Assembly (NCBI RefSeq): GCF_036226525.1 | Contig: NZ_CP108487.1 | Span: 372,001 to 436,000, forward strand | DNA length: 64,000 nt | Source of the DNA: Kribbella sp. NBC_01245 | GTDB lineage: Bacteria > Actinomycetota > Actinomycetes > Propionibacteriales > Kribbellaceae | Direction: 5' to 3' | Shown here: positions 53,386 to 60,168 of the stretch, one piece after another | How positions within the stretch are numbered: the stretch's first letter is position 1 | Layout of the letters: the number at the start of each line of letters is the position of its first letter | Translations under genes and position numbers: made by a program | The notes under the pieces: model-generated | Told to the model about the DNA's origin: nothing | The model's database searches: none | What the model saw: only the letters and a program-made list of their open reading frames with translations

Positions 53386-54215
53386 TCGTTCCCTTCGGCA
53401 CCCGTCTGCGCGCCGCCATGGCCGCGCGCGGTCCGCTCTGTGTCGGTATCGACCCGCACGCCCACCTGCTGCAGGCCTGGGGTCTGCCCGATGACCCGAG
53501 CGGCCTGGAGAAGTTCACCTTCACCGTCATCGAGGCTCTCGCCGAGCAGGTGGCGATCTTCAAACCGCAGTCCGCGTTCTTCGAGCGATTCGGCTCGGCC
53601 GGCGTCGCCGTACTCGAGCGCGCCATCCCGGCGGCCCGCGCGGCCGGTGCGCTGGTCCTGCTGGACGCGAAGCGTGGCGATATCGGTTCGACCATGGCCG
53701 GTTACGCCTCGGCGTACCTCGCCAAGGACGCGCCGATGGCCTGCGACGCCTTGACCGTCAGCCCGTACCTCGGCTTCGGCTCGTTGCAGCCCGCCTTCGA
53801 GGAGGCGCACGTCGCCGGGGCTGGCGTCTTCGTCCTGGCCCTCACCTCGAACCCGGAAGCCCCTGCCCTGCAATCAGCCCGTACGGCGGGAGGTCCGACC
53901 GTCGCCGGGTCCGTGCTCGACGGCCTGCGCGGTCTCAACGAGGGCGTCGAGGATCTCGGCTCCTTCGGCGCGGTCGTCGGTGCCACGATCGGCTCGACCG
54001 ACGAGGACCTGGACATCCGCGGCCCACTGCTCGCACCCGGCCTCGGAGCCCAAGGCGCCACCGCGGAAAGCCTCGCCAAGATCTTCGGCTCCGCGCTGCA
54101 CAACGTCGTACCCAACATGTCCCGCGAGATCCTGGCCGAAGGCCCCTCGGTCCAGGCCCTCCGCGACGCCACCACCAGAGCCAACGACACCCTCGGACCG
54201 GTGCTGGGGTACTAA
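53382..54215 (+). CDS. pyrF: orotidine 5'-phosphate decarboxylase (type 2)
   Basis: A 277-residue TIM barrel of the larger, bacterial type 2 subfamily. The catalytic DxKxxD is in '[17 protein letters not shown]'. '[16 protein letters not shown]' and '[12 protein letters not shown]' bind phosphate. It makes UMP. Last gene of the pyr operon; pyrE is not in the window, so orotate phosphoribosyltransferase is encoded elsewhere, as is usual in actinobacteria. Confidence 0.95.
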
Positions 54216-54229
54216 TCGGTCATGACCGA
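54216..54229. promoter_or_regulatory. palindrome TCGGTCATGACCGA over a start codon
   Basis: A perfect 14-bp palindrome begins directly after the pyrF stop and contains the ATG (54222-54224) of the XRE-NB-ARC gene. It could be an operator for the XRE domain or an RNA hairpin at the start. Chance symmetry cannot be excluded. Confidence 0.35.
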
Positions 54230-55307
54230 CTCCTTTGGTGATCTGCTCCGGCGTCGCCGCCGGGGCAGGTCCCTGACTCAGCAGGCCCTGGCGGAGCGGT
54301 CCGGGCTGAGCGTGGAAGCGATCGGGGCGCTGGAGCGTGGTACGCGGCGCATGCCCTATCGGGAGACCGTCGAGCAGATCGTGTCCGCGCTCGAGTTGGA
54401 CGAGTCGGAACGCGTCCAGCTCGAACAAGCCGCCCGGCCTGGTCCGCTACCGGTCGAGGAGGAGCCGACCGGCTGGGTTGTGCCGGCCCAGTTGCCGACG
54501 GCGGTCGCGGACTTCACTGGGCGGGGCGAGCAGGTGCGGACGGCGCTGGCGTGGTTCGCCGATGGTGGGCCGCCGGGAGCGCCGTCGATCCTCGCGATCG
54601 AGGGAATGGCGGGGGTGGGGAAGACCGCGCTCGCCGTACAGCTCGGTCGTCTGCTGGCCGAGCGGTATCCCGACGGTCAGTTGTATCTGGACCTGAACGG
54701 GTTCAACGCGATGACCACGCTGTCGCCGCTGGACGCGCTCGGCGCACTCCTGCGCGCCGTGGGGGAGTGGGTTGTTCCCGCGGAGCCGGCCGAGGCGGGT
54801 GCGTTGTTCCGCTCACGGGTTGCCGGGCGCCGAGTGCTGCTGGTGCTGGATAACGCCGCCGATGCGGCCCAGATCGACGCGTTGATCCCGGCCGGGGCGG
54901 GTTGCGCGGTACTGGTCACGAGCCGGCGCAAGATGATCGGCCTCGCCGCCGCACGCCACCTCGAACTCGACGTGCTGGAGCCGGGGGAGTGCCGGGACTA
55001 TCTCGGCTCGATCCTGGGCCGGAAACGCCTTACGGCCGAGCCAGGTCCGGCGGATGCGCTGATCGAGCTGTGCGGCCGGTTGCCGCTCGCGCTCGGGCTG
55101 GCTGCGGCACGATTGCGGGCGCGGCCGGACTGGCGGATCGCTGACCTCGTCACCGAACTGGACGATGAGGGTGCGCGCCTCGAGCGCCTCGACCGGCTTG
55201 AAGCTGCGGCCGATCGAAGCTTGCAGGCGCGGTCTCCATCGGCTCGCCGATCGCCGGCGCGAGTCTGGACGACGACGCCCGGCTCGCGTTTCCGGCCCTC
55301 GGCGTGA
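54222..55307 (+). CDS. XRE-NB-ARC STAND protein, N-terminal part (frameshifted)
   Basis: A 361-residue product: an XRE helix-turn-helix (about 5-62, 'LTQQALAERSGLSVEAIGAL'), then NB-ARC with Walker A 'EGMAGVGKTALAVQLG', 'LYLDLNGF', Walker B 'RVLLVLDNAAD' and sensor 'VLVTSRRKMIGL', up to 'WRIADLVTELDDEGARLERL'. After about 55225 the frame departs from its paralogue and ends in an unrelated Arg/Ser-rich tail. The matching continuation (VSIGSPIAGASLDDD) is in the -1 frame. A one-base deletion in the stretch CAGGCGCGG explains it. Without the TPR half it may be inactive or may act as a truncated protein. Confidence 0.75.
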   Translation: MTDSFGDLLRRRRRGRSLTQQALAERSGLSVEAIGALERGTRRMPYRETVEQIVSALELDESERVQLEQAARPGPLPVEEEPTGWVVPAQLPTAVADFTGRGEQVRTALAWFADGGPPGAPSILAIEGMAGVGKTALAVQLGRLLAERYPDGQLYLDLNGFNAMTTLSPLDALGALLRAVGEWVVPAEPAEAGALFRSRVAGRRVLLVLDNAADAAQIDALIPAGAGCAVLVTSRRKMIGLAAARHLELDVLEPGECRDYLGSILGRKRLTAEPGPADALIELCGRLPLALGLAAARLRARPDWRIADLVTELDDEGARLERLDRLEAAADRSLQARSPSARRSPARVWTTTPGSRFRPSA

Positions 55308-56506
55308 TTGCCGCGCAGGACCTCAGCCTGCCGGTCGGCGCGGCGATCCTCGGTCGCCCGCCGCAGCAGGCCGAGGCGGTGCTCGAAGCTCTGGTCGACC
55401 TGCATTTGCTGCGGTCCACCTCGCCGGAGCGTTACCAGTTGCACGACCTCGTTCAGGTGTACGCCCGGACGCTCGCCGAAAACCGATTGTCCGCCGCCGA
55501 GCGCACCGCCATTCTCGAACGCGTGCTGTGCGGCTATCGGCGAATCGGCCTGGCGACAATCGAGTTGTCCGAGCCGTCCAGCGCGCTGCTCTCCTGGATC
55601 GACGCCGGCTGGCTCGAGGCTCCGCGTGGGTTCGACGATCCGGCGGCCGCTTTCGAATGGCTGGATCGTGAGCTGCCGACGCTGCGGGCCGTCGTACGGC
55701 AGGCGACGCAGGCCGGCGGGGAGACCGCCGAACTCGTGCCCGGGGTGGTGCTGAGCCTGGTCGGCTACCTGATGGCCCGGAACAACGCCGTCGACTGGTG
55801 TGACTTGTTGAGCGATGCGCTCGCACTGGACCTCGACGATCGGGTCCGCGGGATGCTGGTGATGCACCGGGGCATGTCCGAGGCGATCGCCGGGCTGCGG
55901 GACGAACCCGTGCAGAGCTTCCGCGACAGCGCTGAGTTGTTCCGGCGGGGTGGCGACGCGCAGGGCGAGGTGGCGGCGACCGGCAACCTCGGGCAAATGC
56001 TGAACCGCCTCGGACGACTCGACGAGGCGGTCGAACCGATCGAACGAGCGCTGGCGATCAACCGTGAACTCGGGAACGAGAACCAGGCGGCGAAATCCCT
56101 GCGTACGTTGGGGAATCTGTTCTGGATGCGTGGCGATCACGCGCGCGGGCTGGAGACGACGGAGGCCGCCTTGGCGTACTTCCGCGCTGCGGGTGAGGCC
56201 TGGGACATCGCCATGTCGTTGCACATCCTCGGCGAGATGCGTCGGCAGCAGACGCGCTATGCCGAGGCGGTCGACCACTTGCTGGAGGCCGCCGGGTTGT
56301 ATCGCTCGATCGGTCACCTGTCCGGGCTGATGGAGTTGCTGGGGGATCTCGCCGCCTGTCACGTCGAAAGCGGTGCCCCCGACCTCGCCGTACCGGTGTT
56401 CTCCGAAGCCATAGAGCTCGCAGAGGAGCTGAGAGATCCCGGCCGGGCCCGACGGTTCGGAGCTGCTCTGGATGCCGCGCTCGAGCAGATCGAGGCGGAT
56501 GGGTGA
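55304..56506 (+). CDS. XRE-NB-ARC STAND protein, C-terminal winged-helix/TPR part
   Basis: Codes from GTG 55304, which overlaps the preceding stop as GTGA, for 400 residues. The first is the end of the NB-ARC winged-helix region ('ILGRPPQQAEAVLEALVDLH', then 'YQLHDLVQVYARTL'), followed by TPR repeats ('ATGNLGQMLNRLGRLDEAVE', 'SLHILGEMRRQQTRYAEAVD'). It is co-linear with the second half of the next gene. It is either the distal half of a frameshifted gene or a translationally coupled separate subunit; the paralogue argues for the former. Confidence 0.72.
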   Translation: MIAAQDLSLPVGAAILGRPPQQAEAVLEALVDLHLLRSTSPERYQLHDLVQVYARTLAENRLSAAERTAILERVLCGYRRIGLATIELSEPSSALLSWIDAGWLEAPRGFDDPAAAFEWLDRELPTLRAVVRQATQAGGETAELVPGVVLSLVGYLMARNNAVDWCDLLSDALALDLDDRVRGMLVMHRGMSEAIAGLRDEPVQSFRDSAELFRRGGDAQGEVAATGNLGQMLNRLGRLDEAVEPIERALAINRELGNENQAAKSLRTLGNLFWMRGDHARGLETTEAALAYFRAAGEAWDIAMSLHILGEMRRQQTRYAEAVDHLLEAAGLYRSIGHLSGLMELLGDLAACHVESGAPDLAVPVFSEAIELAEELRDPGRARRFGAALDAALEQIEADG

Positions 56507-58749
56507 CGTTCGGGCAGCTGCTGCGGCGGCATCGGCGGGCGGTCGGCATCACCCAGGAGATGCTGGCCGCGCGGTCCGGGCTGAGTGTGGAGGCGATCGG
56601 TGCGCTGGAACGTGGCACGCGGCGAGCGCCGCACCAGGGGACGATCGAACAGCTCGTTGACGCCCTCGGGCTTGCCGACGAGGCCCGCGACGAGTTCGAA
56701 CGGTCGGCTCGGCCCGCGGATGCGGGTTGGCCGGGTACGCGCGGTCGCCTGCCGCCGGTGTTGCGGCATTTCGCGGGCCGGGACAGCCAGGTTGATGAGG
56801 TCGTCGACCGGTTGCGGGCCGCGGGGAGGCGGGGTGCCGCGCCGATCCTGTCGATCGAGGGAATGGCTGGGACCGGGAAGACCTCACTTGCCGTGTACGC
56901 CGCGCATCGGCTGGCCGACGCGTATCCGGACGGGCAGATCTATCTGGAGCTCAACGGGTTCAGCGCTCGGCCGGCGCTGACCGAGCTGCAGGCGTTGACG
57001 CGGTTGCTCGGAGCCGTCGGCGTCCAGGCGAAGGCCGTACCGAGTGAGGTCGCGGAGGCGTCCGCGCTGGTGCGGTCGAAGCTCGCCGGGCGGCGCGTAC
57101 TGCTGCTGCTCGACAACGCGGCCGACTCGGCCCAGGTCGAGCACCTGATCCCGGCCGATGCCGGTTGTGCGGTCATCACGACGAGTCGTCGCAAGCTGAT
57201 CAGTCTGGCCGGTGCGGAACACCTCGAACTCGGGCTGCTCGAACCGGTTGCCGCTCTCGCGGTGCTCCGCTCGGTGCTCGGGAGTGGCCGGGTGGACGCC
57301 GAGCCCGCCGAGGTGGAGCGGCTGGTCGAGCAGTGCGGGCGGCTGCCGTTGGCGATCGGTCTGGCCGCCGCGCGGTTGGCGGCTCATCCGTCGTGGCGCG
57401 TGCGCGATCTGGCGGATCGGCTCGCGGACGAACAGGCCCGATTGGACGAACTCGCGGCCGGCGATGCTGCGGGCTTTGCTGCGGCCTCTGCCTCGGGATT
57501 TGCCGAGTTGCGGGCCGCCTTCGCCGTCTCGATCGATGAGCCGGCGGATTTCGCCCGGCTCGGCGTGGTGGACCTCGAAACGATCGGCCTGGCGGTCGGC
57601 GCCGCGATCCTGGACCGGCCGTTGAGCGCCGCCGAGGCAGTGCTCGAGGAGCTGGTCGACCTGCACATCCTGCAATCGGCCGCGCCCGAGCGGTACCACT
57701 TGCACGACCTGCTGCAGGTGTACGCGCGCGAGCAGGCGAGCATCACGCTCGCCACCGACGAGCGTGACGCCGTACTGACTCGCGTGATCGAGCTCTACCG
57801 CCGGGCGGCGCTGGAGTCGACCCGGCTCTACGCGCCGAGCAGCAAGGTGCTCGGCTGGGCCGACGACGCCTGGTCGAGTCCGCCGATCGGGTTCGCTGAC
57901 GCGGCCGAAGCGTTCGCCTGGCTGGACGCCGAGCAGCCGAACCTGGTCAGCGCGATCAACCAGGCCGCCCAGCAGGGCGAAGCGGCCGCGGAACTGGTGC
58001 CCGGGCTGGTCCTCGGCCTGGTGCCGTACTTCATCTCCCACGGCCCGATCTCCACTTGGCGCCAGCTGATCGAGACGGCGCTCAGGCTGACCGGCGACTC
58101 GGTCACCCGGGCGATGCTGGTGGGGGATCGCGGTATCACCGAGGCGCAGCTCGGGCTGCAGGACGAATCCATCGAGAGCTTCGACCAGGCCGTCGAGTTG
58201 TTCCGGACCGCGGGTGATCGCGTCGGTGAAGCGATGGCGGTCGGCAACCTCGGGCGTCAGCTGTCCCTGATCGGACGGCGCGAACTCGCCCTGGCACCGC
58301 TCGAGCGGAGCCTGGCCCTGCATCGCGAGCTCGGCCTGGCCGCGGGGGAGGCGGGCCTGCTGCTGACGCTCGGCATGCACCACTGGATGAGCGGCGAGCG
58401 GGAGTTGGGCCTGGACCTGGTCTGGCAGAGCCGGGAGCTGAACGAGCGGCTCGGCAACGTTCGCGGACTCGCCATCGCGGAGCACAACATCGGGCTGCTG
58501 TCGGTCGAACTGGGCAAGATCGCCGACGGCGTATCCGCGCTGATCACCGCCATCCACCTTCAGGGGCTGATCGACCATCGGGCCGGAGTGGCCGATGGAC
58601 TCGCCGATCTCGGCAGTGTCGTGGCCGAGTACGGCGATCGCGCGGACGGCCTTGCGCCGATCCGGGAGGCCCTCGCGATCGCGTCGGAGCTCGGGGACAA
58701 GCTCTTGCTGGCCAAATGCCAGGGCGCCCTGGCGAAAGCGCTGGGCTGA
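56503..58749 (+). CDS. XRE-NB-ARC-TPR STAND regulator (intact paralogue)
   Basis: A 748-residue protein: XRE helix-turn-helix (about 1-60, 'ITQEMLAARSGLSVEAIGAL'), NB-ARC ATPase with Walker A 'EGMAGTGKTSLAVYAAH', Walker B 'RVLLLLDNAAD' and 'GCAVITTSRRKLISL', a winged helix ('YHLHDLLQVYAREQ') and C-terminal TPRs ('AVGNLGRQLSLIGRRELALA'). The architecture is AfsR-like but lacks the BTAD domain. STAND NTPases act as signal-triggered switches in regulation or defence. The GTG overlaps the upstream stop by four bases. Ligand and target unknown. Confidence 0.85.
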   Translation: MTFGQLLRRHRRAVGITQEMLAARSGLSVEAIGALERGTRRAPHQGTIEQLVDALGLADEARDEFERSARPADAGWPGTRGRLPPVLRHFAGRDSQVDEVVDRLRAAGRRGAAPILSIEGMAGTGKTSLAVYAAHRLADAYPDGQIYLELNGFSARPALTELQALTRLLGAVGVQAKAVPSEVAEASALVRSKLAGRRVLLLLDNAADSAQVEHLIPADAGCAVITTSRRKLISLAGAEHLELGLLEPVAALAVLRSVLGSGRVDAEPAEVERLVEQCGRLPLAIGLAAARLAAHPSWRVRDLADRLADEQARLDELAAGDAAGFAAASASGFAELRAAFAVSIDEPADFARLGVVDLETIGLAVGAAILDRPLSAAEAVLEELVDLHILQSAAPERYHLHDLLQVYAREQASITLATDERDAVLTRVIELYRRAALESTRLYAPSSKVLGWADDAWSSPPIGFADAAEAFAWLDAEQPNLVSAINQAAQQGEAAAELVPGLVLGLVPYFISHGPISTWRQLIETALRLTGDSVTRAMLVGDRGITEAQLGLQDESIESFDQAVELFRTAGDRVGEAMAVGNLGRQLSLIGRRELALAPLERSLALHRELGLAAGEAGLLLTLGMHHWMSGERELGLDLVWQSRELNERLGNVRGLAIAEHNIGLLSVELGKIADGVSALITAIHLQGLIDHRAGVADGLADLGSVVAEYGDRADGLAPIREALAIASELGDKLLLAKCQGALAKALG

Positions 58750-58893
58750 CGCGGTAGGTAACGGTCTCGTTCCATCCTGGGCAAGCGTTCTAGATCACCT
58801 CGGGGACTTGGGTCGGATGACCCCGCGAATCCGTCAAGGTTCATGTCGACGGGGACCACTCGGGATCCCCCACAGGTACGAAAGTAGGACCAG

Positions 58894-59256
58894 ATGCGTA
58901 AGGTTGCGGCCCTCGCTGCGGTAATGACCATCAGCCTCGGCGCCCTCACCGCCTGCTCGGGCTCCAGCGGCTACTGCAGCGCGCTGAAGGACAACTCCGG
59001 CGCGGCCTCGATGCCTCAGAACGGCGACTTCGGTCCCGTGATCGAGAAGGCCAAGAAGGTCGCTGACAAGGCGCCGGCTGAGCAGAAGGCCCACTGGACC
59101 GTCCTGATCGAGTTCATGGAGAAGTTCCAGGCCGCCAAGGGCGACCCGGCCAAGACCGCCGCGCTGGCCGGTGAGAGCGCGAAGGTCGCGCCCGCGAGCG
59201 AGGCCATCTCCAAGTACGCCAAGGACGAGTGCAAGGTCGAGATCAAGGGCGCCTGA
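58894..59256 (+). CDS. small lipoprotein (copy 1)
   Basis: A 120-residue protein with a lipoprotein signal (MRKVAALAAVMTISLGALTAC) written as signal MRKVAALAAVMT then lipobox LTAC, modified Cys about 21. The mature helical domain has two further Cys ('GYCSAL' near the start and 'KDECKVEI' at the end) that may form a disulfide. No known family. AGGA lies before the ATG. Paralogous to the next gene. Confidence 0.75.
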   Translation: MRKVAALAAVMTISLGALTACSGSSGYCSALKDNSGAASMPQNGDFGPVIEKAKKVADKAPAEQKAHWTVLIEFMEKFQAAKGDPAKTAALAGESAKVAPASEAISKYAKDECKVEIKGA

Positions 59257-59273
59257 TCGCCTTTCAGGACCTC

Positions 59274-59308
59274 ACCACCCGGTCGCCGGTATTCGGCGGC
59301 CGGGTGGT
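59274..59308 (+). terminator. strong GC hairpin after the first lipoprotein
   Basis: 15-nt arms (59274-59288 and 59294-59308) pair with one G/T mismatch, 18 bases after the stop codon. No T-tract follows. It separates the two lipoprotein genes. Confidence 0.5.
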
Positions 59309-59405
59309 CTCATGAGTACGTGGGGTACGGGCGTCGTACCGATGGGTAGTTGGACCGGGTCGGTAGGTTTGCGGGTTCACAGTGAATCGAATGGATTGGG
59401 TGAGG

Positions 59406-59777
59406 ATGCGCAAGGTTTTCGCGACCGCGGCGGTAGTGGCATCGGTTGCTGGTCTGACCGCTTGTACCGAGGAACAGGCCTACTGCGTGGATCTGGCGGG
59501 TTTCGCGGCGGCGGCCTCGGAGGTTGACCCGACGAATGCGGCCGACTACGGAACGATTGTGGACGACGCCAAGAAGATCGGGGCGACCGCTCCGGCCGAG
59601 GTGAAAGACGACTGGCAGAAGGTGATCGCCTTCGCCGAGAAGGCCAAGGCGGCGAACGGTAATCGGGTCGAAATGGCCCGGCTGAGCCAGCAGACCGCCG
59701 GCGTCACGAAGGCGTACAAGGCCATCGCGACGCACGCCAAAGACGCCTGCAAGGTCGACGTGCCGAACCTGAATTAG
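59406..59777 (+). CDS. small lipoprotein (copy 2)
   Basis: A 123-residue protein, MRKVFATAAVVASVAGLTAC with lipobox Cys 20. The mature part repeats the layout of copy 1: 'AYCVDL' near the start, a Lys/Ala-rich helix ('KVIAFAEKAKAANGNRVEMA') and a C-terminal 'KDACKVDVPNLN'. Sequence identity is modest, so the duplication is old. ATG 59406 is chosen because it aligns with copy 1; 59382 and 59391 are in-frame alternatives. Confidence 0.75.
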   Translation: MRKVFATAAVVASVAGLTACTEEQAYCVDLAGFAAAASEVDPTNAADYGTIVDDAKKIGATAPAEVKDDWQKVIAFAEKAKAANGNRVEMARLSQQTAGVTKAYKAIATHAKDACKVDVPNLN

Positions 59778-59853: not shown

Positions 59854-60168
59854 GTGCCACTTCCTTCGTTGAGTCCGGAGCAGCGGACAGCAAACCTGGA
59901 GAAGGCCGCAGCCGCGCGGCGAGAGCGAGCAGAGATCAAGAACCGCATTCGTCACTCGGGGGCCTCCCCGCGCGACGTGCTGCACGAGGGCCAGACGAAC
60001 GACGTGATCGGCAAGATGCGGGTCAGCGCGCTGCTGCAGTGCATCCCCGGTGTCGGCAAGGTCCGGGCGCAGCAGATCATGGAGCGGGCGGGTATCTCCG
60101 AATCCCGGCGGGTCCGGGGCCTCGGCACCAACCAGATCGCCGCCCTCGAGCGCGAATTCGCCGAGTGA
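59854..60168 (+). CDS. mihF: integration host factor, actinobacterial type
   Basis: A 104-residue nucleoid protein unrelated to HU/IHF. The H2TH-like DNA-binding segment is '[20 protein letters not shown]', then '[18 protein letters not shown]'. '[14 protein letters not shown]' is the basic N-terminal helix. It is the standard left neighbour of gmk and, in mycobacteria, follows pyrF closely. GTG start. Confidence 0.95.

Follow-up and report, generated by a model that had tools for sequence, protein, structure and literature searches.

Two adjacent genes, A and B, lie between pyrF and mihF in an actinobacterial genome that consists of a single contig of 8.68 Mb. Their place and architecture raise the question of whether they form a regulatory unit or a defence unit. 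The window, that is, the whole stretch of 64,000 nucleotides that was analysed, covers positions 372001-436000 of the contig, and coordinates below are those of the window unless another locus is named. A sequence-only reading had described the pair as adjacent XRE-NB-ARC-TPR paralogues joined by four-base overlaps and had considered both functions for them. The answer proposed here is that A and B probably arose by tandem duplication and act as orphan transcription regulators gated by a signal. They would belong to the AfsR-type STAND family, with XRE replacing SARP as the head, and gene A is broken.

The features of the region are the following.

Ending at 54215, plus strand: pyrF, the 5' neighbour of the A/B block
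54216..58749, plus strand: inserted block with genes A and B, absent from 36/36 relatives having pyrF and mihF in the stretch; the conserved flank starts at the stop of B
54222..55307, plus strand: gene A piece 1 (A1), XRE helix-turn-helix and NB-ARC nucleotide core, 361 aa (Pfam HTH_31, NB-ARC; profile 1-334, frame 0)
55221..55258, plus strand: stretch holding the gene A frame break (ends of two profile matches; G+C phase switch)
55304..56506, plus strand: gene A piece 2 (A2), remaining winged-helix region, arm and TPR sensor, 400 aa (Pfam TPR_12; profile 347-742, frame 2)
56503..58749, plus strand: gene B, complete XRE-NB-ARC-TPR protein, 748 aa (Pfam HTH_31, NB-ARC, TPR_12; profile 1-745, single frame)
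58750..58893, plus strand: conserved region 5' of the first lipoprotein gene, the right border of the insertion (alignment with the upstream regions of relatives)
58894-59256 and 59382-59777, plus strand: two small lipoprotein genes, neighbours outside the A/B unit, of a type found in 37/37 relatives without A/B (no Pfam match)
59854-60168: mihF, 3' of the lipoprotein genes

Domain content of genes A and B

The NB-ARC domain was recovered by Pfam in A1 (41.2 bits) and in B (44.9 bits), above the cut-off of 23.5. The alignment of A with B shows the motif pairs GMAGVGKT/GMAGTGKT, LLVLDN/LLLLDN and GRLPLAL/GRLPLAI, which we take to be the P-loop, the Walker-B-like strand and the GLPL-like motif. 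By domain as well as by motif, A and B are STAND/NB-ARC proteins. Their DNA-binding head is of the HTH_31/HTH_3 type in Pfam, and a TPR_MalT match in A2 was weak and fell below the cut-off. The Pfam domains and the placement between pyrF and mihF bear out the description of two adjacent XRE-NB-ARC-TPR paralogues, except that the reading frame of the upstream gene is not open throughout. A scan of the block for promoters and terminators gave nothing above chance, and the repeats shared by A and B in a repeat search reflect only their kinship.

Insertion site between pyrF and mihF

The pyrF-mihF region was fetched from 37 congeners, and pyrF lay within the stretch in 36 of them (the L088 stretch ends early); A and B were absent from the site in all 36. 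The region 5' of the first lipoprotein gene aligns with its counterparts in relatives as far as the B stop codon in the 14 of 38 alignment rows that were listed, in agreement with the block limits of 54216-58749 proposed from the sequence. A and B are an insertion of about 4.5 kb in a variable site beside pyrF and were seen there in the window's genome only. Fixation of the pair at this locus across the family, named earlier as a finding that would speak against a defence role, is thus the opposite of what was seen.

The lipoprotein label was given by eye to both small ORFs, from an N-terminal signal and a cysteine. The type occurs in at least two copies in 36 relatives and as a single copy in L070, and the lipoprotein-like pair at 58894-59777 is found genus-wide between pyrF and mihF. 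Since lipoprotein genes intervene in all relatives fetched, pyrF and mihF are nowhere direct neighbours in the genus, whether A/B are present or not. Among loci from the rest of the class, 11/29 have pyrF less than 1.5 kb from mihF, and mihF and gmk are together in 29/29, these being the non-window loci listed for 51/60 genomes having mihF. The earlier view that the two genes are neighbours in other actinobacteria does not hold in this genus. A link of the lipoproteins to A/B, also raised earlier, was rejected because the lipoprotein type is fixed in relatives that lack A/B.

The content of the site was surveyed in the 36 congener loci with gene calls from a crude script and labels given by eye. 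One conserved protein of about 320 aa is present in 24 loci, mostly together with LysR-like and EamA-like genes; in four loci a large protein (about 1000 aa) stands between the lipoproteins and mihF, and six have the lipoproteins alone. The odd gene order at pyrF is that of a variable insertion site.

Frame break in gene A

The reading frame of gene A was followed with a profile made from the family alignment, from which the copies in the window had been left out. On 54222-56506, frame 0 matched profile positions 1-334 up to base 55220, and frame 2 matched positions 347-742 from base 55259 onward. The two matches run consecutively without overlap, so that 54222-56506 represents a single gene whose frame breaks within 55221-55258. 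The G+C base-composition phase switches at about the same place, and in the profile match the final ~25 codons of A1 lie outside the frame of the XRE-NB-ARC-TPR family. Four-base ORF overlaps exist at 55304-55307 (A1/A2) and 56503-56506 (A2/B), as the sequence-only reading had it, but the first lies within a single gene and is a by-product of the frame break.

The profile gave 59 rows in 40 fetched stretches. Of these, 53 are full-length in a single frame; the other six are partial, and three of them come from one decayed copy in locus L111. This copy (L111:6080-7410, minus strand) is broken into three pieces and stands at one end of a tandem array of four copies, also in the genome of the window. 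Decay occurs in the XRE-NB-ARC-TPR family. The end branches of A and B are alike in both the N-part and C-part trees described below (0.56/0.51 and 0.77/0.69), which speaks for a recent break in A. The split of gene A by a frame change is most simply explained by a recent mutation toward a pseudogene, or by an assembly error.

Gene A could instead encode a working split receptor, whose pieces A1 and A2 would be translated separately through coupled restart at the GTGA overlap and then reassemble; alternatively, the ribosome would change frame. This would suit the overlap of stop and start at 55304-55307, the family sequence retained by both pieces, and the end branches of A, which do not exceed the length that those of B lead one to expect. 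However, the GTG at 55304 with which A2 would start sits within the winged-helix region rather than between domains, and a ribosome-binding motif was not seen by eye before it. The stretch 55100-55310 contains no slippery heptamer and no run of four equal bases either, and a programmed frameshift in A was rejected on the absence of the heptamer. With full-span, single-frame copies as the rule in the family and half of the partial rows coming from one decayed copy, we consider a working split receptor improbable.

Kinship and conservation of the paralog family

Trees of the N-terminal and C-terminal parts were built separately with FastTree (56 rows each). A1 and A2 each joined B with a support of 99 in the N- and C-part trees; the third row of the A-B tree set is a second copy of B itself. 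Identity to B was 57% for A1, the XRE/NB-ARC half, and 42% for A2, the sensor half. Judged by the trees, neither A nor B has a closer relative than the other.

The family was present in 38/38 genomes of the genus (E 1e-30), and the per-genome numbers of family matches, with 28 candidates scored, are lower bounds. The best match to A/B in the 37 other genomes of the genus was 39% identical. Across the order, 14/391 genomes reached E 1e-105, all 14 of this genus and including the window's genome. A scan of genome contigs, whose hits may leave out the genome of the window, found three Streptomyces loci, their best segments being 31-33% identical. On these identities, an orthologous A/B pair elsewhere was rejected for the genomes covered. 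The search for orthologous pairs and their neighbours that had been suggested as a check gave no pair; other family members lie in chromosomal neighbourhoods, and the neighbour families listed there include no clear defence system.

Family copies are often tandem in the fetched loci, with up to five consecutive copies in L149, so that a tandem A/B pair is nothing special in the genus. The five tandem copies of L149 (3935-15368, plus strand), in another congener, share 55-82% identity in the N-half and 36-85% in the C-half between adjacent copies.

In the family alignment, entropy was lowest in the helix-2/3 region among the parts measured (mean 1.18 bits), compared with 2.39 in the TPR part. 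The N-half was conserved above the C-half in 11/12 tandem pairs and in 99.9% of 1431 pairs; A and B fit this pattern and are not outliers. A and B are identical over the helix-turn-helix stretch SGLSVEAIGALERGTRR and share the same DNA-reading helix, indicating that they probably bind one operator. Positions 29, 30, 33 and 34 of helix 3, which presumably contact DNA, vary within the family, and it cannot be concluded that all paralogs share a single operator.

Defence or regulation

Defence and toxin-antitoxin regulators can carry XRE heads too, and a private insertion whose sensor changes fast could also belong to a conflict system. As an anti-phage STAND unit of the Avs/NLR-like kind, A and B would sense a phage product with the TPR part and oligomerise through NB-ARC, and their output would stop phage growth or kill the cell, the XRE head regulating the unit's own expression. 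The STAND architecture, the presence of the insertion in the window's genome only and the faster divergence of the sensor half relative to the switch half all agree with this, and passages of PMC7159879 describe AP-ATPase-TPR proteins in actinobacterial conflict systems. Yet Pfam found no effector domain beyond XRE, and PADLOC (E 0.01) gave A and B only generic helix-turn-helix, control-protein, TPR and weak ATPase matches, with no Avs or other anti-phage STAND assignment. The presence of the family in every congener and the transcription regulator as closest solved relative likewise argue against a defence unit.

The neighbourhoods of family members point in the same direction. The scan covered 18/40 fetched neighbourhoods and 103/113 listed neighbour proteins, called with a crude script; the ten proteins left out were short calls or lay inside tandem arrays and were picked by eye. 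Among the 25/34 families listed, the most frequent PADLOC matches (E 1e-10) were mad3 (10 members), AriA (3), mad8 (3) and mad2 (2), and one protein matched PD-T4-6. From their names, the mad3 and AriA matches would be generic ATPases and the PD-T4-6 match a protein kinase; for mad3 and AriA this agrees with the Pfam result on the same neighbour set, which contains ten ABC-transporter ATPases along with sigma factors, sugar kinases and proteins of that sort (25/74 families listed). No clear defence system appeared among the 25/34 families listed for the 103 neighbours of these 18 loci. A search of phage records found no homologue of A/B, and a phage or mobile origin was rejected. Plasmid records matched in 132 cases, of which 121 were from Streptomyces and all were below 60% identity; among the 20 plasmid matches listed, many bear the names AfsR/SARP, BTAD or tetratricopeptide protein, and the two of the 20 whose surroundings were viewed lie among regulators and metabolic genes. 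The defence option raised by the sequence-only reading is not supported by the PADLOC matches, the neighbourhoods or the phage search, and we hold it to be unlikely.

The regulatory option fared better. By sequence, the closest solved structures are those of the antibiotic regulator AfsR, 8k60 (E 2e-72) and 8jke (E 1.5e-71), matching B 48-490, and the best NCBIfam match for A/B is the AfsR model, in part. Family members elsewhere stand singly or in tandem among housekeeping, transport, metabolic and sigma-factor genes. A and B are ordinary members of a known large family. A literature search found nothing joining AfsR, XRE and NB-ARC, nor NB-ARC with Kribbella.

Regulation could also be local, with A and B controlling the pyrimidine operon carB-pyrD-pyrF in which they sit. 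Gene A begins seven bases past the end of pyrF on the same strand, which makes joint transcription likely, but the congeners retain pyrF here without A/B, other family members lie elsewhere, and position alone is weak evidence. Control of the pyrimidine operon therefore seems highly improbable.

Two side observations concern other family loci. A sigma/anti-sigma pair, SigR/RsrA-like by eye, adjoins family members, some of them tandem, in ten loci (L112, L133, L134, L136, L140-L144, L148), and L107 contains a SARP-type (AfsR-like) ORF, labelled by eye from its sequence.

Proposed mechanism and its meaning

In AfsR, the NOD and TPR parts repress the DNA-binding head and ATP relieves the repression, according to passages of PMC10936776. 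Since AfsR is the closest solved relative and its inhibition is relieved by ATP, we infer for B a switch of the same kind with an XRE head. A model of B based on a six-sequence alignment (mean pLDDT 70.7, pTM 0.43) contains the XRE helices, the P-loop core and the TPR superhelix, and is poor at 313-471 (pLDDT <50). Its first PDB fold match was 6mfv (14% identity, TM-score 0.31, rmsd 21.8 over 702 columns), and others were LGN and ADP-bound Apaf-1; all query TM-scores were low.

For the orphan regulators favoured here, nucleotide switching, signal, operator and direction of control may be pictured as follows. At rest, the winged-helix/arm/TPR part would keep the NB-ARC core of B closed in its ADP form. 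Once the TPR superhelix has bound a ligand or peptide, ATP could bind and the core would open. Opened B proteins would assemble, and their paired XRE heads would bind or release the operator. A and B would probably act on the same operator, with sensors that have drifted apart (42% identity, vs 57% in the XRE/NB-ARC half). The frame change in A separates the DNA-binding head and the nucleotide core from the sensor.

The XRE-NB-ARC-TPR paralogs of the genus may be viewed more broadly as an NLR-like receptor repertoire, in which a conserved switch and DNA-reading head are combined with many fast-diverging sensors and spread by tandem duplication, a view that we consider rather unlikely. If it were true, varied inputs, possibly foreign peptides or phage products, would feed few operators, and A/B would be one species' private addition, in which gene A has had its core cut loose from the sensor. 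As a single case, A/B carry little weight, and one candidate defence unit is removed. The family pattern, with a conserved XRE/NB-ARC half, a diverging sensor half, frequent tandem arrays and members in every congener searched, merits study of the signals sensed by orphan STAND regulators.

Comparison with known systems

Avs anti-phage STAND proteins combine a STAND ATPase core with a repeat-type sensor. A and B differ from them in having an XRE head and in lacking an effector domain and an Avs model match in PADLOC. HaaT, the TPR protein of cyclophane RiPP clusters (NF041717), resembles B in its NB-ARC-TPR architecture, with a match over B 82-734. However, B scored 297.6 bits against a cut-off of 1125 and falls outside that family, and no RiPP-type gene was recognised beside A/B among the ORFs and Pfam matches of the window.

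The head of MalT of E. coli is LuxR-type and C-terminal, whereas B carries its XRE head at the N-terminus. The likeness lies in a signal-gated STAND switch acting on a DNA-binding head, as given for MalT in passages of PMC10936776. The model of B also gives a low-scoring fold match to 6mfv, a STAND protein with a TPR sensor that is named PH0952 in an excerpt of PMC6468293.

AfsR of Streptomyces coelicolor is a large SARP regulator whose head is SARP (OmpR-type and BTA), whereas that of A/B is XRE, and in the AfsR model NF053617 B scored 331 bits vs a cut-off of 1430, which places it outside the model's membership. What A and B share with AfsR is the NB-ARC/NOD core, the arm and the TPR sensor, arranged in equal order.
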